From Pilaira anomala (taxonomy: Eukaryota; Mucoromycota; Mucoromycetes; Mucorales; Mucoraceae): DNA of 64,000 bases. The translations under genes were made by a program, and so were the position numbers. The stretch lies in contig JAIXMQ010000083.1 of the NCBI GenBank assembly GCA_025716855.1, forward strand, positions 1 through 64,000, read 5' to 3'. The notes under the pieces were generated by a model. It saw only the letters and a program-made list of their open reading frames with translations. It was not told the DNA's origin and made no database searches. Shown piece after piece: positions 22,140 through 58,359 of the stretch; position 1 is the stretch's first letter, and every line of letters begins with the position of its first letter.

Positions 22140-22219
22140 TTGCAAAAATATAAATTTTCCTTTTGAGCAACTCTAATAAATTAGGGTTCCACATACATTA
22201 TCAAATCGAATAGAATATA

Positions 22220-22243
22220 CAGTGCGTACGGTCCCAAATGGCG
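22220..22243 (+). repeat. Left terminal inverted repeat, Tc1/mariner type
   Basis: The 24-bp repeat starts CAGTGCGTACGGTCCCAAAT and is preceded by TA. Its exact reverse complement is at 38858-38881. Confidence 0.9.
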
Positions 22244-22400
22244 GATTTGAAAAATCAAATCATTAAGCATAAAAATTATCCAATCAGCAGTTCCCAAAAT
22301 CTCAATGGGCGTGAATAAAATTACAAAACAGCGTATTTTGAAAATCAAATAGCAGACTCGAACCTCCTAAAAAGCGTTTCTTTCATTTGAATATATTTAA

Positions 22401-23553
22401 ATGAGCAACACACACAGATTCTTTATTGAAGATGGACAAGGAGGGATAATTACAGAAGATGGTGAAGAGGCCATGGACTACATTATTGAAAAAGGAGACG
22501 AATTTAATCTTCAAAACTTAACAAATTTAAGTGAGTATAATGAATGTCAACCTGTTCCCATTGAGCTCGATGCCGAAAACGAAAATTTAGAGAACAAAAT
22601 TTCGCTCGTCATTGAAAAAGTAAACAAGATTATTGCTAATAAAGTTGGGAATGTTAGGAACTACACATCTTACTAAGAGTCAGCTTCAAGAGCCACAAAA
22701 ATTGCATATTCTTGAGCTTTTTGACAATAAACCATATACGACGACCGACGAAGTTGTTGATAGTTTAACGAAGGCTTTTGAAGGGTTCATGCTGAAGAAA
22801 TCAACACTTAATAACTTCATATTACATGAGTGCCATTTGACGATTAAAAGACTACAACGCCAACCTAAAGCTCGAAACGATCCTAAGTGTATTGATGCAA
22901 GATACGAATGGGTTATAGAGTAAGATAACTCAGACATGGACTTTCTTCAAAACTGCATTTTTATTGATGAATCAGGCTTTGATATTAATATGAGGCCTTC
23001 TAATGGTCGAGCAGTTTCGGGAACACCAGCTATTGCGTCAACGCCATCTGCAAAAGCCGAATCACATTCCATTTTGGGGGCGATAGCCACTGTTGGGGTC
23101 GTTAATATCGACGTAAGAGTTCCTCAAATGAACAAGAGGATCAAAGTTGCTGGTGGCCGCAAAAGAAAAGTTACTGATGCTAAAAAAGCCGGGAAGAAAA
23201 GCACAACGACAGGACATTATCTCAATTTTTTACGAGGGGTACTTGATCAATTAGACAAGTACCCTGAGTTAAACGGCTTTTATCTTGTAATGGATAATGC
23301 CCCTATCCACAATCATGAGGAGATTGAAACTTTAATCACCAACAGAGGTTATAGATGCGTATACCTACCACCTTGCTCTCCTGAACTGAATCCTATTGAG
23401 CAATTCTGGTCGTTAGTTAAAAATAGAGTCAAGCGTAGTAAGTTCAACAACAAAGAAGACTTGTTTACAAGAATCCGTGATGCTTGCAATGAAGTACCTA
23501 GGGAGATAATAACTAAATCGGTAGAGCACTCAATTGGAGCTCTTGAAAAGTAG
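22401..23553 (+). pseudogene. Decayed Tc1/mariner DDE transposase
   Basis: Three pieces form one former gene. 22401-22676 encodes an acidic N-terminus (MSNTHRFFIEDGQGG); the frame then shifts near 22640-22676 into a segment containing LTKSQLQEPQKLHILELFDN, which is stopped by TAA at 22921-22923; the same frame resumes at once as DNSDMDFLQNC. The catalytic part shows FIDESGF (first Asp), VMDNAPIH (second Asp) and PPCSPELNPIEQFW (final acidic residue), the DDE_3 layout common in Mucorales Tc1/mariner elements, ending at TAG 23551-23553. One frameshift plus one nonsense codon means it should not make full-length enzyme, although the catalytic third is uninterrupted. Confidence 0.88.
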
Positions 23554-23851
23554 GAATAAACAGCCACTTTAATTAGGATAAATGAAATAATAATACGTAT
23601 GCGCTGTGAGTTTCCCTAATGCTGCTACAGGATTTCAACCACCTAAAATTAGACAGGTGCAAAATGTTTTTGAAACGATTGCACAAAGTTGAGGGATGAT
23701 GTGAAAAAGTTTATTGGACAGTTTCATTTAAAGTGGAGACCATTTCAAATACGTTATTAGACACTTTTTGCGAGACAAGTGAAGAAGATACATAGACGCA
23801 TATAATCATTTATTTCTTTGTAGGCTCATTCGGTAGATTATCCACGAGAAT

Positions 23852-24769
23852 TTATTTCTTACTTTTTCGATGAGATGACATGAAAACTTGATTGAGTGGT
23901 GTCGGAGACGGGGAACGACTCAAGGGATTCACGATATCTTCACCGCAAGTCTCGACAAAAGAATATTTTCTTTTGTTACTAAATAAGGATTCAAGGACTT
24001 TAGCCGAAAGCGTAATAAGATGTAACTTCCACATGTACAGGTATTTCAAAGTGTCTTCCAAGCAATCAAACTCAAGTATATCGGTTGGGATATGTAATTC
24101 GGTCACCTTTTGTGAGTACATTATGTTTTTATAGCAGTACATTTGGGTTAGGTAACCGCTGTTTCCCTTGAAATCGAAAGCAAAAACTTGATTATCAGAA
24201 TTATTAGTCAATGAATTGATATAACTAAGTGTATACGAATTGATTCTTGCATTTTTGCTTTGTTGTTGCACGAACACCGAAGTGGTTGCATCCTCCTTTT
24301 AAATTCAATGCTGCAAAGTTCAACTGTTGTCTTCAAGTGTTCGCAACTCACCAACAGATCGATTCTTCCACCGTATTCCGTAAATTTCTGTTCATTGTCC
24401 ACCATGCTGCTAATAGTATCTTTTGTTGCTGCAGATATACTATCACCATCTGACAGAATAAATCTTGTGTCATCCAAAATAATCTCCATCAAGTCTTCGA
24501 ATTTTCGAAGATATGAAAATTCTGATTTCGATGCTGAGGTCTTCTAGAACTTGAACCCACGGACTCTGATAATAAAATAAATAAGTATATTCATATTTTA
24601 TGACAAGAATAACACAACTTACATGTTTTCTACAACGTTTAACAGCTGATATTTGGCTGAAATTTTATAAGTTTCTTTATATTTCAGTTCGTCAATTTTC
24701 GTACGAAGCTGGTACGCATCACCTATCATAGCATGGGGCTTGAGTTCTTCAAGAAGTTTCTTTATTTAA
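23852..24769 (-). pseudogene. Mucorales-type repeat-family hypothetical gene, arm A copy
   Basis: This is the arm A copy of the gene described for arm B (37861-38765). The same two-frame arrangement appears: a segment containing MEIILDDTRFILSDGD up to ELCSIEFK, then a shift into the frame containing FVQQQSKNARINSYTLSYIN, ending at RKSKK. Near the C-terminus it reads GEDIVNPLSR and SSHRKSKK, against DLLSR and SPHRKSKK in arm B. I do not recognise a function. Confidence 0.55.
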
Positions 24770-25163
24770 CATTTATACTTTTGTCATGGGCAATCAAATC
24801 TTTCTTTCGCTTTCTAGTACGATTAATGTCTTTCTTGTTGATTTAAAAGTATGCGCATTTACCAATGAAATCTGTAACAACGGAATCCAGACAACCGTAT
24901 AAATAATTACAGGTTTTTCTTTAGTCAGGAACTATGCACGTTGTTATCCAATCGAGTAGATGGGGTTCACAATTATATATGGTCAATTCAAAAGAGTAGA
25001 ACGTTTATATCCAAAAGCAGAGGAATTGGGTATAGATTCATCAGGATATTCATGGTAGTTTAGAAGAGCTCTTTCAATTTTATTTTACTTAATGAACCAA
25101 CCTTGGGTCTTTTCTCATTAATTATTGATTGTCCACATAACTCTCTCTCTCTCTTGAATTTCT

Positions 25164-25790
25164 TTAATTCAAGTACCACATCAATACCATACCATTGACT
25201 ACAAACTTTTTTTCTTCGTTCTCCTTCAAAAAGTTGTCAATATTGCATCTGCGTCTCTTTCTTGGATTGGAGCCTACACCATTAGGTCTTGCAAAATTCA
25301 AATTATTATTTAGTATAGCTCTATCTCTAAACTGGTGTACATCAGATTGAATAGTATCGGTCACAGCCAAAGAATATGTAGTAACTATTTAGTTCTGTGA
25401 AATCATATTAATATATTACAACCTCTTATTTCTATTTGAACTTACAAACAAAGCTCTTCTGTGGTCACTGGTATCAGGATCAACACTCGAGATATCTTAT
25501 TAAAAGACCTTTTGATGGGCATTGTATTTATATTAATAATTTTTCTTTTTACCTCAAGAGTCTTTAGGTGTTGCTTCAATTCACGCGGCAAAATTTTCAT
25601 TTATAACCACTTTAAGTCAGCGATAAAATCGCGTTTCTCTTTTTTCTTTCCTGCTTTTTCATTGTCATCTAGATACATAGGATCATCATGTGACGAACCA
25701 GTATTGGCTTCTAAATGAGGCTGGTGGTTACTCCATAACTTGGAAAGAATCACCTCCCTTCTTGCAATACTTGATTCGAATTGATATAAG
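25164..25790 (-). pseudogene. Coding remnant, arm A
   Basis: Arm A copy of the remnant at 36830-37453, with the same stop and the same fragment MAVTDTIQSDVHQFRDRAIL. Probably an upstream part of the adjacent repeat-family gene. Confidence 0.35.
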
Positions 25791-26418
25791 ACCTTGAGAA
25801 ATTTTCAAGACCAATCATTAGAGTTATGAAATAGTGATATCTACTGATAAAAGATTTTCTATATCATGAAAATAAGAATAAAATAAAAATCAATAAAAAT
25901 AGCTTTACATTTAAATTTGCATATTTACCATTTGTAATAATGGATTCCAGACTAATATCAACCGTGCACAGATACGTACAAGGTACTAAAAGGTGCTCTT
26001 TAGTCAGAGATATAAGTTGCTGTTGGGTAGATAAAATCCTAGGTAAACATGACCAATTCAAAAGAATGGAATGTATAAAGCAGAAGAATTGGGTATAGAG
26101 TCATTTACTAGCTTTTTCAAACGTAATCAGGATATCAGTTTTGTTTTATTTTATAAAACAAAAATACTCTTACAATGAAAGAATAAAGGTATAAAAGAAA
26201 ACAATAAAAGTAAAAACGCGTCAGCAACTGATTGATTGTGTTATTTGAATTTGAAACGTCAACATGCGATACATACTAATGGGAGACTAAAAATAGTGAT
26301 AGTCTAACAACATCTTTACTGACATTTATTGATAATGGCTGTATGGATTGGCATCGATATGTTTTAATTTCGAACTTGCTCTTCTCAAAATTGTCTTTCC
26401 TCCTATTCACTTGTTCAA

Positions 26419-26449
<31 letters not shown>

Positions 26450-27719
26450 ATCAATGATCTATGCTAGTCTTATCGTCTCTCGTTCACGACTTCAAGTTTA
26501 TTATGTACAAATCTTATTAAAGCCTTCAGTCGTGAAGTAATGTATAAAAAATCTGTTTTTCCATGGCTTTCGTTTCTGTGTAGACTTCCTCTTACTTTCA
26601 CTTTAATGAAATATACATACAAATAAATATAATGCACATACCTATATAAAAATAAATAATATTTTTCCTGTGACACGAATAGAAGGCCGTTGTCACTTAT
26701 TTTGACAGGCTTACTAAGACAAATGAGCTTCTTTACAAAAAAATAAAATAAAGAATACACCTAGTATTTCTTTATAAAATATTATGTACTTGATAATAAG
26801 CATGTTATATTGAAGTTGTATTTTAAACCTGTGTTTTTTTTATACTTAGACTTCAGCCAACCTGCGAAGAAGTATCAACAGCAACGTAGTTCAATCAAGC
26901 TGTTATACAATCATGTTGTTGATAAGGCTATCTTTCTAAATCAAGTAGGATGGAAAAAAAGTTCTTTTTAAACAAAGGTTTATATTGCTTGGAAATAAAT
27001 AAATATGCACTTTAATTGGAAAATAACAAACATTGGCGTCCAAACATTTGGAAAAGTAATGAATTTTATTACAACATGTTAATAAATAAAGAAGAGAGGA
27101 TTATTCATATTCGGTTTTCTAAAAAGTATAGTCTTTTATTTCATACAAAACATACAAGAAAAAAAAATAAGGTAGATTACAAATGTACAACACTCAACTC
27201 AATAAAAATTATAATTTGTTCCATGGCATGTCAAAATGTTTACTATTAATATAACATGTGTATGGCATTTTTTTATGAGCTAGTGTGAGAACTACTTGAA
27301 CCATTATCATTTGTAATCGACTTGGCGTCATATAAACAAATTTTTCTTTTTAACTATGCTTTTTTTTTTTTTTTTTTTTTTTTTTTTGTTAGAAGAGGTA
27401 TTAAACGGGAATTCTAAATTAATTTAAAATGTATATGTAGTGTAGGGAGATTGAACTGATGTGTACAAGTGTTTGTAGAAAAGATAATTGTAGCAAATAT
27501 TTGACCAGGATTGAGAGGTACTTCAGAGAAGATAAACCACCAATTATGTCTGTGTAAGGATAGAGCCAAATATGAATTGAGAAGTAATTTTGATATGAAG
27601 GTCTCGAGTTTGTGAATTAAAAAGTATAAAAGCTTGCAAGTACTTATTTATCTTAGGCGAGTAAATGAAGAGAGATGTGTAAAAGATGCTCTCTGGATTA
27701 GCCAGAGCATTTATAGTAG

Positions 27720-27950
27720 TCTTGTTTGATTTTTTGATTTTTTAATTTTTTGGTTTCTTGTTTTCCTGTTTTGTTTTCTTGTTTTCTTGTTTTCTTGTTT
27801 TCTTGTTTTCTTGTTTTCTTGTTTTCTTGTTTTTTTTTTTTTTTTTTGACTTTGACTTTGACTTTGATTTTTGACTTTTTGATTATTTTTTCTTGTTTTG
27901 TTTTTTTTGATTTTTTGTTTTGTTTCTGTTAAGAGCAAGGATTATTTCAA
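27720..27950. repeat. Tandem TTTTCTTG tract, arm A
   Basis: About seven regular TTTTCTTG-type units followed by a T run and GACTTT units. The partner tract in arm B (34690-34890) has a different order, with GTTTTCCTGTTTT-type units repeated and a longer A run. Confidence 0.8.
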
Positions 27951-28061
27951 GACATATATATAAGACTAGTAGTCAAGACCATGTTGCCAGATTAAAAAGA
28001 AAGAGATTACATATCAAATAGTAACCATCACAGCCAACAAAAGAGACGTTTGACGGATACA

Positions 28062-28268
28062 TCATGATGAGCAAAAAAGATAAATAAATACCTTTGTAAA
28101 ATTAAAAAGCCATTTCCCAGCTATCTCCTCCCAACGAAACGAAGCCACCTCAGATGGATGGAACATCTCTACTAATGGCACTACTATCCCGACTACGGTG
28201 CCCATATTGTACTGCGAGTCAGTTAAGAAGCAAGTCAGCAAATAATGGAATCGGTTATTCGTGGTCAA
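28062..28268 (-). other. Possible coding fragment, arm A
   Basis: Arm A copy of 34362-34568; it encodes the same 68-residue frame except for a change of one residue near the end (CSS versus CPS). Confidence 0.3.
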
Positions 28269-29931
28269 AAGCTGTTTTCGATAGCCAGTACTGAATCTTT
28301 CAATTAAACTATACGTATAGACTATACTAACATTTCACACACCAAACAGTATCAACCAGACGAAGATCTCTTTACACGTAAAATAGAGTCATCTTGAATC
28401 AGACATTCTCCCCATGGCAACAACCGTTGTATTAGACCAACCAAGCAATATCAAGACAAAAGCTTAGCAACCAAGGAAGAAATAGTCATTTTATACGCAA
28501 GGACTTGAAGTAAAATAAGTGTAGAATCATTCTTAAGAACACGTGGGAATATATTAGACAGTTAGCTACTTTCTCCTGTAATAAAGTTATATGTCTTACC
28601 ACTAATATTATTTATTATGCACATTTCAAAGCTGTTCATTTCTTAATACAATATCTTGTATGTCATCAAAGAGGTAGTTTTAAAGAATGGGTATGTTTTA
28701 TTTGAAGAAGAAAAGGAAAAAAGAAAAAAGAAAAAGGGAGAAAAAAAAAAGGTGCTAAAATAAACCTGTTTGTGATCATGTGTGGCGCCAAAAATTTGTT
28801 GAGATTTAAAACATGCATAAATGTATGTCTGTTTCTTATCAGACTTAGTACACCCATTTAATATGAGATTCATACACAAAACGTCAATAAAAGTAGAAGA
28901 AATATACATATAACACACACAACCATTTATCTTGACGTCTTTATTTTTAACTACATATTTGAAATATTTTGTACGTATTTAACCCATAAAGTTGAGATAA
29001 CTAATCCACTTCAAAGAGCTGCTAGCCAATAATATGAATAGAAACCTAATTTCGACATCACGAGACTATGAAAATTATATAAATACCTGGCCCTTTTTTC
29101 ATGTTTTAAAGCATATTTACTTGACCTTGACCTAAAAAAAAAAAAATCTTCAAATCATCGAAAATTTGACTTTAAAGCACTTCAATGACTTCCAACACAT
29201 AAAAACTTGATGAAGAAGTCACATTAGCATGGAACTTTTCTCTATGTAAAAAGAATAGCTACTTTATCAGGAGGACTTATTAAAGCAAGAGACTTTATAA
29301 GTAGAATACAATGGAGAGATAAATATATATATATAAAGGATTCTAATATGTAAAGAAATAAAAGTATGAAATATAATAAAATAGTTAAATCAATAGAGAA
29401 TTTCTATTATTTTTTATAACAGACAGTTAAGATACACTGCTGCTAAAGAGCATCATTGTTAGGTATTAAGGATAATAAAATAAGGTAAAACTAGGTGTAA
29501 CAGCGGATTTTATAAGATGTCTGCATTTTTTTTATATACGACTAAAACATTTATCCCTATTTTCTTTTAATTGCCAGGCATGTACTCTATTGTGTGATTG
29601 TACTGGGTATGTTGCGATGTCCGTATAGCAGAACATTTATAATGCTCTGACATCCCTCAATCAGCACTTCTTGAAGTGTAATGCTCTAGTTGCATGCTGT
29701 TGCAATAGTGCAAATCTCGACTTTTCTTTTTGCTGCAGTAATTAACTTTACCCGGATGATTCCCGACCCCAAAAGTTTACTTTTCGAGGGTTAACTGTAT
29801 TACTGTATGAGTTTTATAATATTTTTATACCAGTTTCGTTCTGGGTTTCTTTTGTCGAGTATCATGTTCTATTGTGGTAAGGAAAGTTGATGTATTTGAT
29901 CCTTGACTTCTTTATGAGAACAGACGTGTGT

Positions 29932-30078
29932 TGGTGATATTGGTGCTAATGCTTGTGTTGGAAATATTGGTGCTAATGCTGGTGTCGATGATATTGGTGC
30001 TAATGCTTGTTTCGGTGATATTGGTGCTAATGCTGATACTGGTATTGGTAATATTGGTTCTAATGCTGGTATTGTTTA
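29932..30078 (+). repeat. Minisatellite, about 27-bp unit
   Basis: Five or so units built on GATATTGGTGCTAATGCTGG with variable endings. All units stay in one open frame that would read DIGANAG-type repeats in one frame and LVLMLV-type in another; no gene context supports translation. Confidence 0.75.
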
Positions 30079-31312
30079 GGAATACATTCATTAAACTTGG
30101 TTCTGTGAATCCTTTTTGATAGCAGACAATTCACTCATGACTGGTCTTTGTTTATTGAAAGTCAAAGGTAAAAAAAAAGGGGGATATTTGTGTTGTTGTG
30201 TATATGATGAGTGCAAATGATATATATGGACATATTTCTTATCACCTTTTTGACCTATTTCATTTTTTTTAGGATGTAATCTCAATTATCTTTTTTTGCG
30301 GGTATCATTTTCTGTTATTGCTCATTTTTTCATCTTTGATTCAATCTTCCCATTCAGTTTTATTCAATAGCAGTCTTGGGATAAAACCTGAGGGATCAAC
30401 TATTGACAGTGGACATTTGTTATGGCAACTGGTGGTGGGCTATACAGTTTCCGTTTTACGGTGGTGGACCATTTGGTATTTTAAAAAGTAATCAATTTTG
30501 GGTGTACCCATTGGTAAGTGTTATGTATTTTCGAGAAAAAAGGAAAGGGAAGATAATAGTTACGTCAATTGTACGGACTCAATTTTCTGATCCAGCCTTA
30601 TTCTTTGGCAGTCTTGGGATAAAACCTCTAGGACATAAACTATCCACAGTGGAAGATGGTTGTGTCAATGAAAAAAGCTCAATCTTCTTGTGAATCTCCC
30701 TTTTAAAAGGGCTTCTAATACACATTTACTTGGTACAACTTCCTTTTCTCTTTTTCTTTATATATATATATGTATATTACTCTCTCTCTCTCTCATTCTT
30801 TTCTCATCATCGTTGATTGAACAAGTGTTATAGGTGTAAGTGTAGTTGTAGATGTAGTTGTAGATGTAGTTGGAGTCATTGTCGATATTATTACTGGTGC
30901 CGATACAAAATTTATTCGTGAAGAGTAGGACTTGGTTCTGTGTATCTCCTTTGGTGACAAGTAGTTCATTCGCGGTAAGACCTGGTTCTATGTGTCGCTT
31001 TTGGTGGACTCAAACTTGTTATGTGATCTCATTCTTTGGGGTTATCAATATCGACAGTGTAAGACAGATACGTCAATGATAAGGACTCAATCATCTTATG
31101 TGATCTCTTTATTATTAACCATACCCCCTTTTTTATTTTTATTTTTTATTTTCATTTTTTATTTTCATTTTTTATTTTCATTTTTATTTTATTTTTATTT
31201 GTATTTATATTTATATTAATCTCCCTTCCTTTCTTTACTATGCTCGATTCAAGAGATGAACTTGAACACTGAGCTCTTAGTAAGGAAGTTTGGTGAACCA
31301 AAGGTGTGTTGA

Positions 31313-31430
31313 TGAAGAAGTTAATGCTGGTACTGGTGATAATGCTGGTACTGGTGATAATGCTGGCACTGATGATAATGCTGGCACTGATGATAATGAT
31401 GGTACTGATGATAATGCTGGTGTTACTGTT
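31313..31430 (+). repeat. Minisatellite, about 18-bp unit
   Basis: About six units of AATGCTGGTACTGGTGAT and close variants. The core GATAATGCTGG resembles the unit at 29932-30078, suggesting related origin. Confidence 0.75.
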
Positions 31431-34361
31431 GTTGTTTTTAATATGTTTTAAAAGGAGGGCAAACCCTTGTTTTTTTTTCTCTATTAAAGGTAGGTGTATC
31501 CTCTCTTGGAACTATTGTATTATGGGAAATAGTTATAACTTTTGAGGTTGCAATTGAAAGACGAGAAACCTAAACAAAAATCAATTGGTGTTGGCGTTAG
31601 AGTAAGTGTGGTAAATTTGTTTTTTACTTATTGAAAAAGAATGTCAATAAACTTCTTTTTTGTTTTTGTTTTTGTTTCTAAACTGATTTGAGTTGCTACT
31701 ACGAGTTGATTGTCTCCTTCCTGCGCGTCGTCCGTGCAGTTTTATTTATGTGTGGTGGCACCTTTATTAAACAGATATTAAAGGGTGATAGTTGGTATTA
31801 TTATAAACTTTAGTAATATGATGACTCGTTCTTTTGTTTGACATTGTCAGTTCATGTTAGTAATGCCAATGGCCTGTAAATAGTAATGGCCAACTTTAAT
31901 GATTCTGTTTTCTGACAAGCGTATTACGCGTTTGTAGTAGGTCTTGAGTCGTTCATGAGTGGTTCGTGCAGTTTTATCTGCGTGCAACAATAATACAATA
32001 TATGTATAGCACACGCCCACCTTCCACCCACCCAATACATAAGTTATGTAGATATTGAAGAGGAATCGGATGGATTGTTGTTCTTATCCTAGTAGTTTTC
32101 TCTAGGAGAATATAATAACATCAAGTAATTTAGTTGTTATGGATAGTTATCCATCTCATTTAACTTTTATTCTCTATTCTGCTTTTTACATATATGTATG
32201 ATTTTTTTTTCTTTTATGTATGTATCTGACTGTGATCTTCATTTACTGTAGAAATATATTGAAACAATTGGCTTTACAAAAAGAAAACATGATTCATCTA
32301 AATATTTTGTTGTTTTCATCTGGTTTTTATTATGTAACAAAAATAACAAACAAACAAATCAATTTTACATGTGCTGCGATAGTCGTAGAAAAACTGATCA
32401 CTTGAAGGGAAACCAAGGTTATTTTATTAATAGCAACTTGCTTTTTTGCGGTTCGGCAAGTTGCTAAAGAGACACAACCTTGAAATCCAATCCAAGTTTT
32501 TTAATGATCTTGTACAGATCTGTAATTTTGTGAAGTCTTGGTCTGTTTTTGATTTCACAAAATTGTATACAGGGTTCTCTTTTATATAGAAGCAGTTAAT
32601 AATACATTTATGCAATTTTTTTGTTTTCTTTTAGTTTTACCATCTGTTATTGTGAACATGACAGGGTCCCGAAACTGAATGATGTTTTCAGTTCTTGACT
32701 ATCTTCTTTAGAACGGGAAAACATGATTATGGCGTACTGATTGAAAAAATAGAAGTACTTGGATGAAAAAAAAAGGGGGAAGGTGAAATGACCTAAAATG
32801 TCACTTTATAAATATAATGGCAAAATCTTTTTTCAAGCATAAATATCTCGTAAAATTAATCATTACGGGCTTGAAATGTAGTAAAAGGCACCTACGACTT
32901 TTCAAAAAATAAAAAAAACGGACCGAGCGGTGTATTTTAAGCTGGGAAAGAATGCACCGAAGCGGTTACTTTTTCTAGTAATTGAAAAATCATAGGTGTA
33001 TTTTCTTTTCTTTACTTTATCCAAGTCCTTCTGCTTATAAAACAGGAACTAATGCTCACATGAACTCATTATTACTCATGTATAAAGACGGAAGAATAAA
33101 GATCATCACGTATGTACATTATATGTAGAAACTATTTATCATCTTTTTTTTTTCATATAGCTTAACTATATGTATATGTACTCTAAGTACTTTTTATTTC
33201 TAAAAAAAAATTTATCATTATATATACAAGTAGTTGCAAATAATGTGAAATGATCTGATTGCGCTCATTATTGTAGATTAAAGATGTCATATTCTGGATT
33301 TTGCATAGTCATGAATTCGTGCCTCCCACTTATAAAGTCTCTTGCTTTAATAAGTCCTCCTGATAAAGTAGCTATTCTTTTTACATAGAGAAAAGTTCCA
33401 TGCTAATGTGACTTCTTCATCAAGTTTTTATGTGTTGGAAGTCATTGAAGTGCTTTAAAGTCAAATTTTCGATGATTTGAAGATTTTTTTTTTTTTAGGT
33501 CAAGGTCAAGTAAATATGCTTTAAAACATGAAAAAAGGGCCAGGTATTTATATAATTTTCATAGTCTCGTGATGTCGAAATTAGGTTTCTATTCATATTA
33601 TTGGCTAGCAGCTCTTTGAAGTGGATTAGTTATCTCAACTTTATGGGTTAAATACGTACAAAATATTTCAAATATGTAGTTAAAAATAAAGACGTCAAGA
33701 TAAATGGTTGTGTGTGTTATATGTATATTTCTTCTACTTTTATTGACGTTTTGTGTATGAATCTCATATTAAATGGGTGTACTAAGTCTGATAAGAAACA
33801 GACATACATTTATGCATGTTTTAAATCTCAACAAATTTTTGGCGCCACACATGATCACAAACAGGTTTATTTTAGCACCTTTTTTTTTTCTCCCTTTTTC
33901 TTTTTTCTTTTTTCCTTTTCTTCTTCAAATAAAACATACCCATTCTTTAAAACTACCTCTTTGATGACATACAAGATATTGTATTAAGAAATGAACAGCT
34001 TTGAAATGTGCATAATAAATAATATTAGTGGTAAGACATATAACTTTATTACAGGAGAAAGTAGCTAACTGTCTAATATATTCCCACGTGTTCTTAAGAA
34101 TGATTCTACACTTATTTTACTTCAAGTCCTTGCGTATAAAATGACTATTTCTTCCTTGGTTGCTAAGCTTTTGTCTTGATATTGCTTGGTTGGTCTAATA
34201 CAACGGTTGTTGCCATGGGGAGAATGTCTGATTCAAGATGACTCTATTTTACGTGTAAAGAGATCTTCGTCTGGTTGATACTGTTTGGTGTGTGAAATGT
34301 TAGTATAGTCTATACGTATAGTTTAATTGAAAGATTCAGTACTGGCTATCGAAAACAGCTT

Positions 34362-34568
34362 TTGACCACGAATAACCGATTCCATTATTTGCTGACTTGC
34401 TTCTTAACTGACTCGCAGTACAATATGGGCACCGTAGTCGGGATAGTAGTGCCATTAGTAGAGATGTTCCATCCATCTGAGGTGGCTTCGTTTCGTTGGG
34501 AGGAGATAGCCGGGAAATGGCTTTTTAATTTTACAAAGGTATTTATTTATCTTTTTTGCCCATCATGA
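34362..34568 (+). other. Possible coding fragment, arm B
   Basis: A 68-codon ATG frame includes LTDSQYNMGTVVGIVVPLVE and HPSEVASFRWEEIAGKW, which has balanced amino-acid composition unlike the low-complexity frames around it. It may be an exon of a lost gene. No family recognised. Confidence 0.3.
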
Positions 34569-34689
34569 TGTATCCGTCAAACGTCTCTTTTGTTGGCTGT
34601 GATGGTTACTATTTGATATGTAATCTCTTTCTTTTTAATCTGGCAACATGGTCTTGACTACTAGTCTTATATATATGTCTTGAAATAAT

Positions 34690-34890
34690 CCTTGCTCTTA
34701 ACAGAAACAAAACAAAAAATCAAAAAAACAAAACAAGAAAAAATAATCAAAAAGTCAAAAATCAAAGTCAAAAAAAAAAAAAAAAAAAAAAAAAAAAACA
34801 AGAAAACAAGAAAACAAGAAAACAAAACAGGAAAACAAGAAAACAAAACAGGAAAACAAGAAACCAAAAAATTAAAAAATCAAAAAATCA
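34690..34890. repeat. Tandem AACAAGAAA tract, arm B
   Basis: Inverted partner of the arm A tract; it contains an A run of about 29, then alternating AAGAAAACAAG and AAAACAGG units. Copy number and order differ from arm A. Confidence 0.8.
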
Positions 34891-36167
34891 AACAAGACTA
34901 CTATAAATGCTCTGGCTAATCCAGAGAGCATCTTTTACACATCTCTCTTCATTTACTCGCCTAAGATAAATAAGTACTTGCAAGCTTTTATACTTTTTAA
35001 TTCACAAACTCGAGACCTTCATATCAAAATTACTTCTCAATTCATATTTGGCTCTATCCTTACACAGACATAATTGGTGGTTTATCTTCTCTGAAGTACC
35101 TCTCAATCCTGGTCAAATATTTGCTACAATTATCTTTTCTACAAACACTTGTACACATCAGTTCAATCTCCCTACACTACATATACATTTTAAATTAATT
35201 TAGAATTCCCGTTTAATACCTCTTCTAACAAAAAAAAAAAAAAAAAAAAAAAAAAAAGCATAGTTAAAAAGAAAAATTTGTTTATATGACGCCAAGTCGA
35301 TTACAAATGATAATGGTTCAAGTAGTTCTCACACTAGCTCATAAAAAAATGCCATACACATGTTATATTAATAGTAAACATTTTGACATGCCATGGAACA
35401 AATTATAATTTTTATTGAGTTGAGTGTTGTACATTTGTAATCTACCTTATTTTTTTTTCTTGTATGTTTTGTATGAAATAAAAGACTATACTTTTTAGAA
35501 AACCGAATATGAATAATCCTCTCTTCTTTATTTATTAACATGTTGTAATAAAATTCATTACTTTTCCAAATGTTTGGACGCCAATGTTTGTTATTTTCCA
35601 ATTAAAGTGCATATTTATTTATTTCCAAGCAATATAAACCTTTGTTTAAAAAGAACTTTTTTTCCATCCTACTTGATTTAGAAAGATAGCCTTATCAACA
35701 ACATGATTGTATAACAGCTTGATTGAACTACGTTGCTGTTGATACTTCTTCGCAGGTTGGCTGAAGTCTAAGTATAAAAAAAACACAGGTTTAAAATACA
35801 ACTTCAATATAACATGCTTATTATCAAGTACATAATATTTTATAAAGAAATACTAGGTGTATTCTTTATTTTATTTTTTTGTAAAGAAGCTCATTTGTCT
35901 TAGTAAGCCTGTCAAAATAAGTGACAACGGCCTTCTATTCGTGTCACAGGAAAAATATTATTTATTTTTATATAGGTATGTGCATTATATTTATTTGTAT
36001 GTATATTTCATTAAAGTGAAAGTAAGAGGAAGTCTACACAGAAACGAAAGCCATGGAAAAACAGATTTTTTATACATTACTTCACGACTGAAGGCTTTAA
36101 TAAGATTTGTACATAATAAACTTGAAGTCGTGAACGAGAGACGATAAGACTAGCATAGATCATTGAT

Positions 36168-36198
<31 letters not shown>

Positions 36199-36479
36199 TT
36201 GAACAAGTGAATAGGAGGAAAGACAATTTTGAGAAGAGCAAGTTCGAAATTAAAACATATCGATGCCAATCCATACAGCCATTATCAATAAATGTCAGTA
36301 AAGATGTTGTTAGACTATCACTATTTTTAGTCTCCCATTAGTATGTATCGCATGTTGACGTTTCAAATTCAAATAACACAATCAATCAGTTGCTGACGCG
36401 TTTTTACTTTTATTGTTTTCTTTTATACCTTTATTCTTTCATTGTAAGAGTATTTTTGTTTTATAAAATAAAACAAAAC

Positions 36480-36710
36480 TGATATCCTGATTACGTTTGA
36501 AAAAGCTAGTAAATGACTCTATACCCAATTCTTCTGCTTTATACATTCCATTCTTTTGAATTGGTCATGTTTACCTAGGATTTTATCTACCCAACAGCAA
36601 CTTATATCTCTGACTAAAGAGCACCTTTTAGTACCTTGTACGTATCTGTGCACGGTTGATATTAGTCTGGAATCCATTATTACAAATGGTAAATATGCAA
36701 ATTTAAATGT
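36480..36710 (+). repeat. Diverged direct repeat, copy 1 (arm B)
   Basis: Shares with 37565-37765 the run of motifs ATATCCTGAT, CTATACCCAATTC, TCTTTTGAATTG, CTGACTAAAGA and TGGAATCC/TGGATTCC...TTACA. The matching pair in arm A lies at about 25920-26150 and 24865-25066. Confidence 0.65.
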
Positions 36711-36829
36711 AAAGCTATTTTTATTGATTTTTATTTTATTCTTATTTTCATGATATAGAAAATCTTTTATCAGTAGATATCACTATTTCATAACTCTAAT
36801 GATTGGTCTTGAAAATTTCTCAAGGTCTT

Positions 36830-37453
36830 ATATCAATTCGAATCAAGTATTGCAAGAAGGGAGGTGATTCTTTCCAAGTTATGGAGTAACCACCAGCCTC
36901 ATTTAGAAGCCAATACTGGTTCGTCACATGATGATCCTATGTATCTAGATGACAATGAAAAAGCAGGAAAGAAAAAAGAGAAACGCGATTTTATCGCTGA
37001 CTTAAAGTGGTTATAAATGAAAATTTTGCCGCGTGAATTGAAGCAACACCTAAAGACTCTTGAGGTAAAAAGAAAAATTATTAATATAAATACAATGCCC
37101 ATCAAAAGGTCTTTTAATAAGATATCTCGAGTGTTGATCCTGATACCAGTGACCACAGAAGAGCTTTGTTTGTAAGTTCAAATAGAAATAAGAGGTTGTA
37201 ATATATTAATATGATTTCACAGAACTAAATAGTTACTACATATTCTTTGGCTGTGACCGATACTATTCAATCTGATGTACACCAGTTTAGAGATAGAGCT
37301 ATACTAAATAATAATTTGAATTTTGCAAGACCTAATGGTGTAGGCTCCAATCCAAGAAAGAGACGCAGATGCAATATTGACAACTTTTTGAAGGAGAACG
37401 AAGAAAAAAAGTTTGTAGTCAATGGTATGGTATTGATGTGGTACTTGAATTAA
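36830..37453 (+). pseudogene. Coding remnant upstream of repeat-family gene, arm B
   Basis: A coding-like stretch (ARREVILSKLWSNHQPHLEA, then GKKKEKRDFIADLKWL) ends in a TAA near 37014, resumes as MKILPRELKQHLKTLE up to a GTAAAA donor-like site near 37063, and a second piece at 37247-37453 contains FARPNGVGSNPRKRRRCNID, a basic nuclear-localisation-like cluster. It lies upstream of and on the same strand as the 37861-38765 gene and may be its 5' exons, now broken. No function recognised. Confidence 0.35.
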
Positions 37454-37564
37454 AGAAATTCAAGAGAGAGAGAGAGTTATGTGGACAATCAATAATTAAT
37501 GAGAAAAGACCCAAGGTTGGTTCATTAAGTAAAATAAAATTGAAAGAGCTCTTCTAAACTACCA

Positions 37565-37765
37565 TGAATATCCTGATGAATCTATACCCAATTCCTCTGC
37601 TTTTGGATATAAACGTTCTACTCTTTTGAATTGACCATATATAATTGTGAACCCCATCTACTCGATTGGATAACAACGTGCATAGTTCCTGACTAAAGAA
37701 AAACCTGTAATTATTTATACGGTTGTCTGGATTCCGTTGTTACAGATTTCATTGGTAAATGCGCA
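37565..37765 (+). repeat. Diverged direct repeat, copy 2 (arm B)
   Basis: Second member of the direct-repeat pair, more diverged than the two arms are from one another, so this duplication is older than the palindrome. Confidence 0.65.
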
Positions 37766-37860
37766 TACTTTTAAATCAACAAGAAAGACATTAATCGTAC
37801 TAGAAAGCGAAAGAAAGATTTGATTGCCCATGACAAAAGTATAAATGTTAAATAAAGAAA

Positions 37861-38765
37861 CTTCTTGAAGAACTCAAGCCCCATGCTATGATAGGTGATG
37901 CGTACCAGCTTCGTACGAAAATTGACGAACTGAAATATAAAGAAACTTATAAAATTTCAGCCAAATATCAGCTGTTAAACGTTGTAGAAAACATGTAAGT
38001 TGTGTTATTCTTGTCATAAAATATGAATATACTTATTTATTTTATTATCAGAGTCCGTGGGTTCAAGTTCTAGAAGACCTCAGCATCGAAATCAGAATTT
38101 TCATATCTTCGAAAATTCGAAGACTTGATGGAGATTATTTTGGATGACACAAGATTTATTCTGTCAGATGGTGATAGTATATCTGCAGCAACAAAAGATA
38201 CTATTAGCAGCATGGTGGACAATGAACAGAAATTTACGGAATACGGTGGAAGAATCGATCTGTTGGTGAGTTGCGAACACTTGAAGACAACAGTTGAACT
38301 TTGCAGCATTGAATTTAAAAGGAGGATGCAACCACTTCGGTGTTCGTGCAACAACAAAGCAAAAATGCAAGAATCAATTCGTATACACTTAGTTATATCA
38401 ATTCATTGACTAATAATTCTGATAATCAAGTTTTTGCTTTCGATTTCAAGGGAAACAGCGGTTACCTAACCCAAATGTACTGCTATAAAAACATAATGTA
38501 CTCACAAAAGGTGACCGAATTACATATCCCAACCGATATACTTGAGTTTGATTGCTTGGAAGACACTTTGAAATACCTGTACATGTGGAAGTTACATCTT
38601 ATTACGCTTTCGGCTAAAGTCCTTGAATCCTTATTTAGTAACAAAAGAAAATATTCTTTTGTCGAGACTTGCGGTGAAGATATCGTGGATCTCTTGAGCC
38701 GTTCCCCGTCTCCAACACCACTCAATCAAGTTTTCATGTCACCTCATCGAAAAAGTAAGAAATAA
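37861..38765 (+). pseudogene. Mucorales-type repeat-family hypothetical gene, arm B copy
   Basis: A likely first exon (37861-37992, ELKPHAMIGDAYQLRTKIDE to LLNVVENM) ends at a GTAAGT, followed by an intron to about 38051. The second part reads TSASKSEFSYLRKFEDLMEI and DGDSISAATKDTISS to ELCSIEFK at about 38318; coding character then continues in another frame with EDATTSVFVQQQSKNARINS through LTNNSDNQVFAFDF, SGYLTQMYCYKNIMYSQK and YMWKLHLITLS, to TAA at 38763-38765. A single missing A in the AAAA run near 38316 would explain the shift. The pattern resembles a large lineage-specific protein family I associate with Mucorales repeats; no biochemical function is known to me. Confidence 0.55.
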
Positions 38766-38857
38766 ATTCTCGTGGATACTTTACCGAATGAGCCTACAAA
38801 AAAAAAAAGGTCTTGAATAAATGATTATATGCGTCTATGTATCTTCTTCCCTTGTCT

Positions 38858-38881
38858 CGCCATTTGGGACCGTACGCACTG
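38858..38881 (-). repeat. Right terminal inverted repeat, Tc1/mariner type
   Basis: Reverse complement of the left terminal repeat, followed by TA at 38882-38883. The inner three bases overlap the outermost bases of palindrome arm B. Confidence 0.9.
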
Positions 38882-38883
38882 TA

Positions 38884-53871: not shown

Positions 53872-53934
53872 TTTTTTTTTTTTAGTTTTTTGTTTGTTAA
53901 GGAAAAAGAAAAAGAAAAGAATGCGTTTCACGTA

Positions 53935-53971
53935 CAATGAGGCACGAAAAGTTTTACATGTTAAAACTCCG
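53935..53971 (+). repeat. Left 37-bp TIR of Tc1 element
   Basis: Starts CAATGAGGCACGAAAAGTTT and ends in ACTCCG; the exact reverse complement is at 55225-55261. Confidence 0.95.
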
Positions 53972-54057
53972 GATTTGAAGGGTTTCATGCAACATGTTGA
54001 TGTTTAAACCTTTGTAGCTCTATATTCTTCTTTATAATTTTTATTTTTATTTAATAA

Positions 54058-55065
54058 ATGCCTCGCTTAACAACTGAAAAGAAAGCTATGATTGTTGAAC
54101 GCGCTAGAGGAAACGTGACACAGGAGGAAGTCGCAAACGATTTCGGTGTTGATCCTTCTACTGTCAGTAGACTTATCAAAGGATTTGAGGAAAGAGGAAC
54201 AGTAGAAAGTAAGAAGAGTTCCGGAAGACCCAAGAGCTTGACAGATAGTGACAGACGCTTCTTAAGAAGACATGTGAAAAGAAACAGAAGCGCAACTCAA
54301 GACTCTATTATTAAGGAAATGCCTTTTAAAATGAGCAAATGGTTACTTCGACATGAGCTTAAGGCAATGAACATTAGAAAAAGAATGAGAACAAAAAAGC
54401 CATATCTTGAGAATAGGCATATTAAAGAGAGATTGAAGTTTGCTAAAGAGCACAAAAACTGGACTTTGGAGCAGTGGAGGGACATTATTTGGACTGATGA
54501 ATCAAGCATCGAAATCGGTCGCGATATTGATCTGAAGAAAGTATGGAGGGAGCCTAAGGAGAAGTTTTTGAAGGAGTGTTTGATGCCTTCTTTTATGAGT
54601 GGAAGAACCAAAATAATGGTTTGGGGCGCCATTCGTGGTAGTGAGAAGTCTCGTTTGGTAGTTCTACCTAAAGGAAGGATCAGAAGCAGAGAATATGTTG
54701 ACTTTGTATGCAAACCTGTCTTACTAGGTTTTTACAATAGTAAACCAGGTGCCATACTTATGGAAGATAACGCTCCTATTCATACCAGTCGTGAGACAAA
54801 TAAGTGGAGAGATGAAGCTGCTGTAAAGAAGATGAAATGGCCAGCAAGATCTCCGGATTTGAATCCAATTGAAAACATGTGGAATATACTGAAAAGGAAG
54901 TTTCATAGAGAATGGTACAATCATAGGTCTCATCGTTCGACACAAGTAATGATTGAGTATGCCTGGAGAAGTATATCTGTTGAATACGTCAATAAACTCA
55001 TTGATAGTATGCCATCCCGCATGCAACAAGTGATTGATGCAAAGGGAGGCCCTATTAAATATTGA
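54058..55065 (+). CDS. Tc1-like transposase, DDE family
   Basis: One intact exon encodes 335 residues. The N-terminal paired-type helix-turn-helix reads VTQEEVANDFGVDPSTVSRL, followed by a GRP hinge (SSGRPKSLTDSDRRFL) and a second helical region. The catalytic core has WTDESSIE (first Asp), LMEDNAPIHTS (second Asp) and ARSPDLNPIENMWNILKR (Glu 34 residues after the second Asp by family rule), so the triad is complete. It binds the terminal repeats and cuts and pastes the element into TA sites. The ATG at 54058 follows an AT-rich leader 86 bp inside the left terminal repeat. No stop or frameshift is seen. Confidence 0.95.
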   Translation: MPRLTTEKKAMIVERARGNVTQEEVANDFGVDPSTVSRLIKGFEERGTVESKKSSGRPKSLTDSDRRFLRRHVKRNRSATQDSIIKEMPFKMSKWLLRHELKAMNIRKRMRTKKPYLENRHIKERLKFAKEHKNWTLEQWRDIIWTDESSIEIGRDIDLKKVWREPKEKFLKECLMPSFMSGRTKIMVWGAIRGSEKSRLVVLPKGRIRSREYVDFVCKPVLLGFYNSKPGAILMEDNAPIHTSRETNKWRDEAAVKKMKWPARSPDLNPIENMWNILKRKFHREWYNHRSHRSTQVMIEYAWRSISVEYVNKLIDSMPSRMQQVIDAKGGPIKY

Positions 55066-55224
55066 TGTAAAATAACCAAAATAATTTTTTTTAATTTTTT
55101 TCTTTTGGTGCGTTGACTATAAAATATGTCTATTTAATTATTTATGCAATGATAAGCTAAGTAGCTATGACTGTAAAGTATGAAAAGACTTCGAAAGTTT
55201 TTTTTTTGATCTAGACAAGCATAT

Positions 55225-55261
55225 CGGAGTTTTAACATGTAAAACTTTTCGTGCCTCATTG
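55225..55261 (-). repeat. Right 37-bp TIR of Tc1 element
   Basis: Exact reverse complement of 53935-53971, followed by TA. Confidence 0.95.
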
Positions 55262-55271
55262 TACATATATA

Positions 55272-55461: not shown

Positions 55462-55467
55462 TACATA

Positions 55468-55696
55468 CAGAGTTTCCCACTATTTTTGGGAATTAATATG
55501 GGAATTAATGGGAAAAAATTTAAAAGTTAATAAAACTAAGTTTGAAAGTTGATGGAATAAATTTTGAAGATTAATTAAAGTTAGTTAGTAATGTGATTCT
55601 TACATAGACGTTTTAAGGCTTTACCTGTATCAAGGTTTTCCAAAGCGATAACTTAGGAGGATAATTATTGTTTTTTTCCCCAGTTTAATCGGTCAT

Positions 55697-55731
<35 letters not shown>

Positions 55732-55830
55732 CTCATGAATATCGCAGGTTTCCAAACTTTTTTCTGATGTTTTTTGATAAACATTTGTTTGATTGAATTT
55801 TATTGATATGGGCACTGAGCTTCATCTTAG
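55468..55830 (+). repeat. Left long inverted terminus of Fanzor element
   Basis: Inverted match to 57590-57922, including the non-coding GATAACTTAGGAGGATAA segment, the T run and, at the inner end, codons for KLSAHINKIQSNKCLSKN (minus strand). Confidence 0.8.
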
Positions 55831-57342
55831 AAGTAACTTCAGCTCTAATCTTTAAGTATTCAACAAATGCTTCCTTCTTTACTGTGAGTGGCGAGTACTT
55901 GCTGAGTTTGTCCTCGCAATCTTGAATGTCTTTTGGTTTCAACTGTTGCCGCAGCTTTTTAAATTTTGTTGATTTTGTTTCCTTTGCTTTTTGATTTCTC
56001 GTGTACCTATAAATTTTTTGGTTATTGACTGTGCTATCTTCGTGCATACAATAAATCAGATCACGTCGACCAGGATCAATAAATACACATTTTCCATCTG
56101 TAGATCGTAGTTCCTCGTTGGGGATTTGTTCAATATATTTGAGTTCTTCATCTTCCACTTAACTGGCCTTGGGATTACTTGCACCACCTTTAGACGTGTC
56201 GAAATTTTGTTTTATTACAGAAATACCTATGCCATCTGTCATTATAGTTCCTCTGAACTCCATGGAGCTGTTTAGGCCTTGATCTTTGAAAGGTTTTGAA
56301 GATAAATTTAGGACTTTTCCCCAGATATACCCTTTATCCAATTTGCTTCTTTGGGAATTTTTTAATATATGATTGTTCAATATCATAGTATCAATAGTCA
56401 TATATGACGGAATAAAAGTCTTTATTACAGGAAAGCATTGGAATAATTTGAACTTGTTAACCTCGCATATGTATCTCTGCTAGTTTAAAATAAGCAAGTA
56501 AGTGTTTTCCTGGATTTGTAATAGCATCATAATATATGGAATCTTTTTTAAACTTGTAAGTTTCAGGATAAGCAGAAAGTATGTCCTTAATACAGTTGAT
56601 AATAGCCTTTTGATCTTGGAATTCTTTTGGGATTCGGCTGATATCTCTTGATGGAATAGCCAGTTTAAGTTGTGTAGCAGGTTCCAGAATGTTACTTTTA
56701 ATTTTGGCTTTAGTTTCCTCTTTTGAGTAGCCTTGCTTTTTCAAATCGCTAGTCAATTGTGAGATACGTTGCTTCAGTCCAATCAGTTTATTGACAACCA
56801 TTCTCAGCTTATTTCCAAAATCTTTAGTGATTGCATTAATACAAGCAGTTTGTATTTTTGTAGCTTCATATGAGGCTATTTGTTGAGCAGAGGGTAGCTT
56901 GATTGGCGTGAATGATGAATCTCTACAATACGATGCTTTCTACTTGTTTATCATCTCTCTATATGCCTTTGCTTTGCCCGATAGTCTATTAACATTCACA
57001 GTTTTACTGTCTAAAAGTGATAAAAACACTTCCTTGTAAAAACTTTGGACTGCATACTCTTCTAAATTAAGATTAAGCTCTTGGATAAATATGTATCTTG
57101 TAAACAAATACGTATGGGTAAAGATAATATGAACGTCATGAACGAGTTTCTTCAAAATAGAAAGATATTGAGATTTCCATCCTATTCCAGTAATTGAATA
57201 CTTTACAGTCATAACCTTTTTACTATTATCATCAGTGTTTATTGATAATGTATTCACCTGTGAAAATAAATGTGAGCAAAATAATACATTTAAACCCGTT
57301 AAAAATACTTACAAAGGAATATTGTTCAACGGATCCCTCCAT
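55733..57342 (-). pseudogene. Truncated Fanzor (eukaryotic TnpB-like RNA-guided nuclease) pseudogene
   Basis: Minus strand. First exon 57313-57342 (MEGSVEQYSF) has GTAAGT; the intron ends CACAG and the second exon starts VNTLSINTDDNSKK near 57257. The frame meets a TAG at 56940-56942, resumes in the same frame (DSSFTPIKLPSAQQIASYEA, then MVVNKLIGLKQRISQLTSDL), shifts near 56460 into KFKLFQCFPVIKTFIPSYMT and IDTMIL, meets TAA at 56159-56161 and resumes with the RuvC-I motif VFIDPGRRDLIYCM. The DPGRRD form of the RuvC-I aspartate, together with the preceding YMTIDT block, is typical of Fanzor proteins. The frame ends after KKFGNLRYS, so the second RuvC Glu, zinc-finger cysteines and last RuvC Asp are absent. 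It cannot be an active nuclease. Family call rests on motif memory. Confidence 0.8.
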
Positions 57343-57589
57343 TTTTACTCAAAGGAAAAATTGTTAAGAAAGAGAAAAGAACAAAGAAGAAAAAAAGAAG
57401 GGTTTTGACAGTATTTATAAAACTGGTTATTGGTTTTTAGGACTGGTAAAAAAAAACTTGTTTGTATTTTATAACGTAAGCAATTACACTAATTAATCAA
57501 TGCATGATGATGTATCTCCTATCTCATTTTTGAATACCATACTTTTTCAATTATTTTATAAAAATAAGAGAAAGAAAGACTTACTCCCC

Positions 57590-57922
57590 TTTAGAAAGAT
57601 AAAGCTCAGTGCCCATATCAATGAAATTCAATCAACCAAACGTTTATCAAAAAACATCAGAAAAAAAAACAATCAAAAGAAAAAACTATGACCCGATTAA
57701 ACTGGGGAAAAAAACAATACTTATCCTCCTAAGTTATCGCTTTGGAAAACCTTGATACAGGTGACTAAAGCCTTAAAACGTCTATGTAAGAATCACATTA
57801 CTAACTAACTTTTTAATTAATCTTCAAAATTTATTCCATCAACTTTCAAACTTAGTTTTATTAACTTTTAAATTTTTCCCATTAATTTCCATATTAATTC
57901 CCAAAAATAGTGGGAAACCCTG
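57590..57922 (-). repeat. Right long inverted terminus of Fanzor element
   Basis: Contains, on the plus strand at about 57599-57665, KLSAHINEIQSTKRLSKN, a diverged copy of the mid-gene Fanzor segment found at the opposite end. It is oriented opposite to the main gene and lies upstream of its start, so it cannot be part of it. Confidence 0.8.
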
Positions 57923-58359
57923 TACCATTTACAATGCCTTGAGTAGGTAAACATTAAGCAGTACAACTCCGCATATAGTCACAGTCACAGTGAACTATTG
58001 CGGTTAGTGAATGTAGTGGAAATTTGGAAACAATAAAAGATACATATGTAACTCTTTTGTAGTCGTTATACCCTTAAAATCAAACTTCTCTTTCACTCAT
58101 TGGAACTTTTATTTAGTAAATATTTAATAACAAAAAGATAATACTATGTACGTCCTGAGATAGTTACTTTTAACCTGAATAAACTTATGTAGTGTCAACA
58201 TCAAAATATTCTAATTTTTTAATACATACTGCAACTATCAATTTGATTGTTATTTTTTTTTTTTCACACGCTTCAAACAAGAAGGTTTCATTGTTGTAAA
58301 TCTGATAAATTACTCTTTTTTTTAGTGCTTTCCTTCTCTTTCACTTTTATTCTTCTTAT

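Follow-up and report, generated by a model that had tools for sequence, protein, structure and literature searches.

Near-identical palindrome arms between Tc1/mariner ends in Pilaira anomala, and the dispersed repeat from which most of the arms are made

Long near-identical palindromes are generally regarded as unstable, and the best-known examples come from sex chromosomes; most copies of foldback elements, another kind of DNA with long inverted arms, carry no enzyme. Mammalian sex-chromosome palindromes are described as arms more than 99% identical around a spacer, an identity credited to gene conversion (PMC8981503). The Tm1 element of Meloidogyne is portrayed as having terminal repeats that are composite and shared across the family, together with 9-bp duplications (PMC3169594), and in yeast inverted repeats separated by as much as 30 kb are reported to fold back in single-stranded DNA and to give rise to dicentric chromosomes (PMC10164571). 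In the literature that we searched, which scarcely covers subscription papers, no description was found of long palindromes of this kind in Mucorales. The locus presented here occupies 16.7 kb (22218-38883) of a 64,000-nucleotide window, the whole stretch of DNA that was analysed, at positions 1 to 64,000 of contig C208 (JAIXMQ010000083.1) of the Mucorales fungus Pilaira anomala; the one genome examined comprises 34.25 Mb in 225 contigs (assembly GCA_025716855.1). We read it as a Tc1/mariner copy split by a palindrome, which would have arisen by inverted duplication from a dispersed repeat, here called U, would have lost part of its centre and would be kept uniform by arm-to-arm conversion. 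To this account as a whole we give a probability of about 55%.

A BLAST comparison of the window with itself, together with an alignment of the arms, places two inverted arms of 5,533 bp each at 23770-29302 (plus strand) and 33328-38860 (minus strand), 99.3% identical with 12 substitutions and separated by a loop of 4,025 bp. Both lengths are, to the base, those given in the original prediction, an earlier annotation made from the letters of the window alone. Arms and loop form a palindromic insert of 15.1 kb inside the mariner. From the outside inwards, each arm consists of the 3' fragment of a gene, a short repeat S followed by a segment V', and part of the long AT-rich repeat U, so that the right arm carries U1 (the first part of U), V', S and the gene fragment, all inverted. 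The loop is asymmetric, and the two flanks of the 16.7-kb locus are unlike each other.

The outer ends of the locus are those of a Tc1/mariner element. The terminal inverted repeat (TIR) TACAGTGCGTACGGTCCCAAATGGC was located by self-comparison and pattern search at 22218-22242 (plus strand) and at 38859-38883 (minus strand), without mismatch and with TA outermost, in agreement with the 24-bp inverted ends first reported; the exact match extends one base more, to 26 bp, and the right TIR overlaps the tip of the arm at a common GC. The stretch 22218-23769 (plus strand), delimited from reading frames, the DDE_3 match and comparison with a relative on C183, is a mariner minus its last 25 bp. Its transposase, correctly recognised from the start as decayed, is broken into pieces in different frames at 22401-22676, 22624-22923 and 22924-23553, of which the last matches Pfam DDE_3 (E 7e-24) and the first two fall below every Pfam cut-off. 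Without the insert, 1,552 and 25 bp make an element of 1,577 bp; the relative, at C183:143611-145166 (about 67% identity, TACAGTGC ends), is 1,556 bp long. TA-flanked TIRs, a DDE_3 domain and a length near that of the relative together place the split copy among Tc1/mariner elements. On the plus strand the left junction reads TTTTT-GC-GAGACAAG and the right junction CTTGTCTC-GC-CATTTGG, the GC adjoining both arm tips as originally seen. This GC is the sole candidate target-site duplication (2 bp at most), and it may be microhomology. At up to 3 mismatches, the TIR has two further sites in the 34.25 Mb, against no control matches; these sites, on C143 and C184, are both lone, no partner being found in the stretches fetched. 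A genome search for additional copies of this mariner, including the empty 1.57-kb copies that the prediction had proposed as a check, gave only these lone TIRs.

Most of each arm is a repeat dispersed genome-wide, a feature that the original prediction overlooked; it had proposed a search for arm sequence outside mariner ends. U (27341-32888, AT-rich) forms at least 56 clusters, two of them in the window, spread over 27 contigs. The count takes all 146 listed rows of at least 200 bits within U (48 + 98), excludes rows of S, V' and D (a further segment, described below) and trims the window rows to U; the numbers are lower bounds, since scoring was limited to 40 candidates out of 251 and 40 out of 161. 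On the plus strand of the left arm, genome searches delimit S at 24832-25041, which elsewhere adjoins U copies at their head, and S with V', the centre segment of U units, at 24833-27340; the part 25644-27340 is also present at C35:579266-580950 and C101:501074-502778. U1, defined in addition by a U1 tree, spans 27341-29302 with a poly-T tract at its head, and U2, the continuation of U, lies unpaired in the loop at 29303-32888 (also plus strand). Among the matches listed, S recurs at 20 other places (counted by eye); at 19 of these the distance to a U head is 69-455 bp, with S reading away from U, and at C159 it is 1.7 kb; only in the window does gene sequence stand in place of the U head. Neighbouring U clusters less than 10 kb apart form 14 pairs, 13 inverted and 1 direct (p 0.002, or 0.003 without the window's own pair). 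Five of the inverted pairs are head to head and eight tail to tail. Between the U heads lie 2.1-2.7 kb containing S and V in the head-to-head pairs C1, C35a and C159, and about 5.5 kb in C35b and C101, where V' is found as in the window.

Other U palindromes were located at C1 (306075-312220 / 314452-320596, arms 99.4% alike), C113 (118934-125525 / 127323-133920, 99.8%), C160 (316562-320054 / 325585-329079, 99.7%) and C35b (572116-577551 / 582876-588317, 99.5%), and also at C149 (98.0% over 1.2 kb), C68 (97.4%) and C159 (93.9%). Three palindromes, those of the window, C1 and C113, stand between TA-flanked TIRs of three types. C1:306075-320596 has TIR and TA at both tips, the TIR TACAYCTTTTGCC being also found elsewhere; in the form TACAYCTTTTGCCAAAA, present at both ends of C1, it is of another family and, with up to 2 mismatches allowed, matches 53 sites, two of them those of C1 itself, where the reversed control matches 13. 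A further copy of this family lies at C57:60999-65646. At C113 the TIR is TACTGGATTTCCCACTG, again with TA at both tips, which differ by an indel; each arm holds a 285-amino acid transposase frame, the first 200 residues of which match DDE_3 (E 1e-9). The counter-example is C160, whose palindrome ends in a poly-T tract and has no TIR. For C35b, a shared-word search for a target duplication found none.

These ends bear on a second model, in which the entire 16.7-kb locus, or else a symmetrical ancestor flanked by a mariner body on each side, moved by way of the mariner TIRs and the right-hand body was later deleted between two GC dinucleotides. The original prediction had set this model beside that of a split mariner of about 1.57 kb; the latter fits better, given the 1,577 bp obtained here and the 1,556 bp at C183, and the former is still kept in view because TIR and TA stand at both outer ends and the C1 and C113 palindromes end likewise, with other TIRs. 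Movement of the whole unit nevertheless appears rather unlikely: the 25 bp missing from the left mariner are precisely those found at the right end, for which the split copy needs no coincidence, the C160 palindrome ends without a TIR, and no second 16.7-kb unit was seen, the TIR having just its two lone matches.

The 15.1-kb insert might also be a foldback-type DNA element in its own right, with GAGACAAG as its termini and GC as a 2-bp target duplication. This is very unlikely, even if the insert has the long inverted arms of such an element and these share an end base with GC at both junctions. An 18-base tip pattern starting GCGAGACAAG gave 167 matches at up to 3 mismatches against 115 for its reversed control and is exact at the two sites here and nowhere else in the genome; the ends differ at C1, C113 and C160, so that termini are not common to the copies; and the outermost 1.06 kb of the arm consists of a gene fragment that, among the matches listed, is found besides the arms only in a stretch on C204 that lacks the tip. 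The new non-autonomous class that had been envisaged on the basis of these termini is accordingly not supported.

The fragment in question (23770-24832, minus strand, delimited by comparison with the C204 paralogue) is the 3' piece of a host-type protein-coding gene and contains an open reading frame of 148 amino acids at 23852-24298, which has seven more matches in the genome. Its nearest DNA, at C204:645.9-646.7k, is 93% alike in two stretches, and the homology breaks at 24834, where S starts; the gene has thus been joined to S. Homologues of a full-length relative on C202 occur in Rhizopus and Mucor as well as in further Mucorales, and this relative reached no Pfam cut-off. A frame of 563 amino acids on C202 is 100% identical to a Pilaira anomala protein over 73% of the query. 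We rejected a retro-copy origin, as intron-like sequence is kept (by eye) in both the fragment and the C204 copy.

Differences between the arms are unevenly spread. Nine of the 12 in the window fall in the outer 160 bp, for which the probability under even spread would be about 3e-12, the 160-bp limit having been chosen after the data were seen; between the two tips there are 9 substitutions and 13 gap columns. Counted per 250 bp, in an alignment that yields 14 substitutions where BLAST yields 12, there are 9 in the outermost bin, none in the next 15 (3.75 kb) and 5 further in. The outer bins of C35b hold 18, 14 and 3 (35 in 750 bp), followed by 19 bins with none (4.75 kb) and 13 differences near the inner end, and C1 has 7 in its outer 250-bp bin and 9 beyond, 8 of these within 2.5 kb of the tip. 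By tree and pairwise identity among 23 U1 rows, the arms are mutual closest copies in four of six palindromes (window, C1, C113 and C35b); in the window, U1 is 99.85% identical between arms against at most 98.5% to any other copy. At C160 a third copy is as close or closer, one of the arms matching it at 100% and the partner arm at 99.92%. Identical interiors next to tips of older divergence are the trace expected of arm-to-arm conversion, and the pattern in these alignments suggests that such conversion keeps the arms alike.

Long stretches free of any difference, and the position of several U stretches at contig ends, could also be expected of an assembly artefact in which one arm was assembled twice or both were homogenised by polishing. 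Consensus polishing could imitate the identical interior, though not the divergent tips; in addition, the loop is asymmetric, the flanks are unlike, and similar palindromes lie inside long contigs (C1, C35 and C113). We consider an artefact unlikely. The structure is real, and its mariner part is more ordinary, and the repeat family more interesting, than was originally held.

At the centre of the palindrome, U2 halts at 32888, while C35:589894 and C18:21753 continue in common sequence. It is followed by 110 bp (32889-32998) without a match among the fetched loci and by the segment D (32999-33327, plus strand; genome search), which here precedes the inverted U1. Read from the loop outwards, the right-hand side is D, U1, V', S and gene; since D sits between U2 and U1 at C159, the right arm here lacks U2. 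An asymmetric central deletion in a once longer palindrome would account for both the loop and the stop of the arms at 29302.

Under the favoured account, a decayed Tc1/mariner of about 1.58 kb between two host genes would have been broken 25 bp from its right end by the 15.1-kb palindrome. The insert would derive from the U repeat, through inverted duplication of a unit made of gene fragment, S, V', U1 and U2 joined tail to tail, possibly by fold-back or template switching at inverted U copies. Later loss of the right-hand U2 and of the end of the left-hand U2 would have left the asymmetric 4-kb loop, and conversion between the arms would hold them near-identical, with outer tips that escaped and show older divergence. 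The palindrome may have entered the mariner by junction repair, or by transposition with a 2-bp GC repeat. We infer this order of events, as neither a donor copy of the palindrome nor an empty mariner of this family was found in the genome, and that absence is itself one of several points that weigh against the account. Both arms stop at the same base, which resembles a defined terminus and not ragged repair. The right ends of the relatives on C193 and C25 resemble the left TIR over 45-60 bp, compared with 26 bp here, so that the right end of this mariner may have been altered, which is mildly adverse. As regards conversion, differences at C1 continue to 2.5 kb from the tip, those at C113 (5) and C160 (6) lie mostly near the inner end with no outer step, the C159 arms are unpaired in the U1 tree, and identical arms could also be obtained from consensus polishing in assembly. 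A wider proposal, that U, S, V and U make up a giant inverted-repeat family with arms of about 5 kb, which spreads as palindromes, converts its arms, forms by fold-back and moves with the borrowed TIRs of unrelated TA-target transposons, seems to us unlikely.

With regard to the nature of U, no long open frame was seen in it; frames of at least 130 amino acids in the U of fetched loci look, on visual inspection, largely low in complexity or derived from repeats. The Pfam scan covered ten window pieces: three of the mariner, six of the gene fragment and V' (two being the same stretch in both arms) and one in U. The ends of U at 32042 and 32888 were both rejected as termini, being internal to other copies that continue, and no true outer end was found in the locus comparisons. 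A centromeric role is unlikely, as several U loci lie on one contig. An alternative U tail after window position 32042 is common to C113:125523-126620, C160:306205, C162:128019, C68:127382 and C35:571477, and is possibly a degenerate gene (118-amino acid frame at C113). Two direct U copies 30 kb apart, at C197:86193-91778 and 116134-121693, are each followed by nearly the same gene (344 and 345 amino acids), which we take to be peroxin-13-like; they represent either a segmental duplication or an assembly duplicate. Direct copies about 15.1 kb apart at C160:301456-306204 and 316577-321457 are identical over 1.3 kb of U1.

Some further features were recorded. The TIR element at C57:60999-65646 shows no transposase frame, and contains minisatellite-like frames (SPWSSPW, GHHRG) and an S-like piece. 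Within the window, an apparently whole Tc1-like element at 53932-55264 has TA-flanked TIRs identical over 40 bp and a single open transposase frame of 335 amino acids (54058-55065) with DDE_3 (E 9e-15) and HTH_Tnp_Tc3_2 matches. At 55466-57924, inverted repeats that are 94% alike over 265 bp, with more repeats farther in, have the tips GTTTCCCACTATTTTTGGGAATT and enclose a 160-amino acid frame; they are perhaps another TIR element. An exostosin gene lies to the right of the split mariner, its closest proteins being in other Mucorales at up to 77%, and Rfam at gathering thresholds returned no known RNA genes in the window.

The U palindromes, a countable set within a single small fungal genome, offer a natural system for studying palindrome formation, centre loss and homogenisation, and the same set bears on whether DNA transposons can carry palindromes. 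Compared with described systems, the locus shares with Tc1/mariner elements the TA at both ends, the short TIRs and the DDE_3 domain, in 22218-23769 and 38859-38883, and differs in a 15.1-kb palindrome foreign to any ordinary copy. Foldback elements such as Tm1 and Galileo are alike in shape, with long inverted arms around a middle; unlike Tm1 as described (PMC3169594), the outer ends here differ between loci and any duplication is of 2 bp at most. The yeast fold-back events (PMC10164571), reported from an experiment in a yeast mutant, provide only an analogy for the origin proposed. Closest by behaviour, as far as their published description goes (PMC8981503), are the sex-chromosome palindromes, with which the locus has in common near-identical arms, a spacer and putative conversion, and from which it differs in that the fungal arms are of 1-6.6 kb, consist largely of a dispersed repeat and occur at several loci, some of them with DNA-transposon ends.

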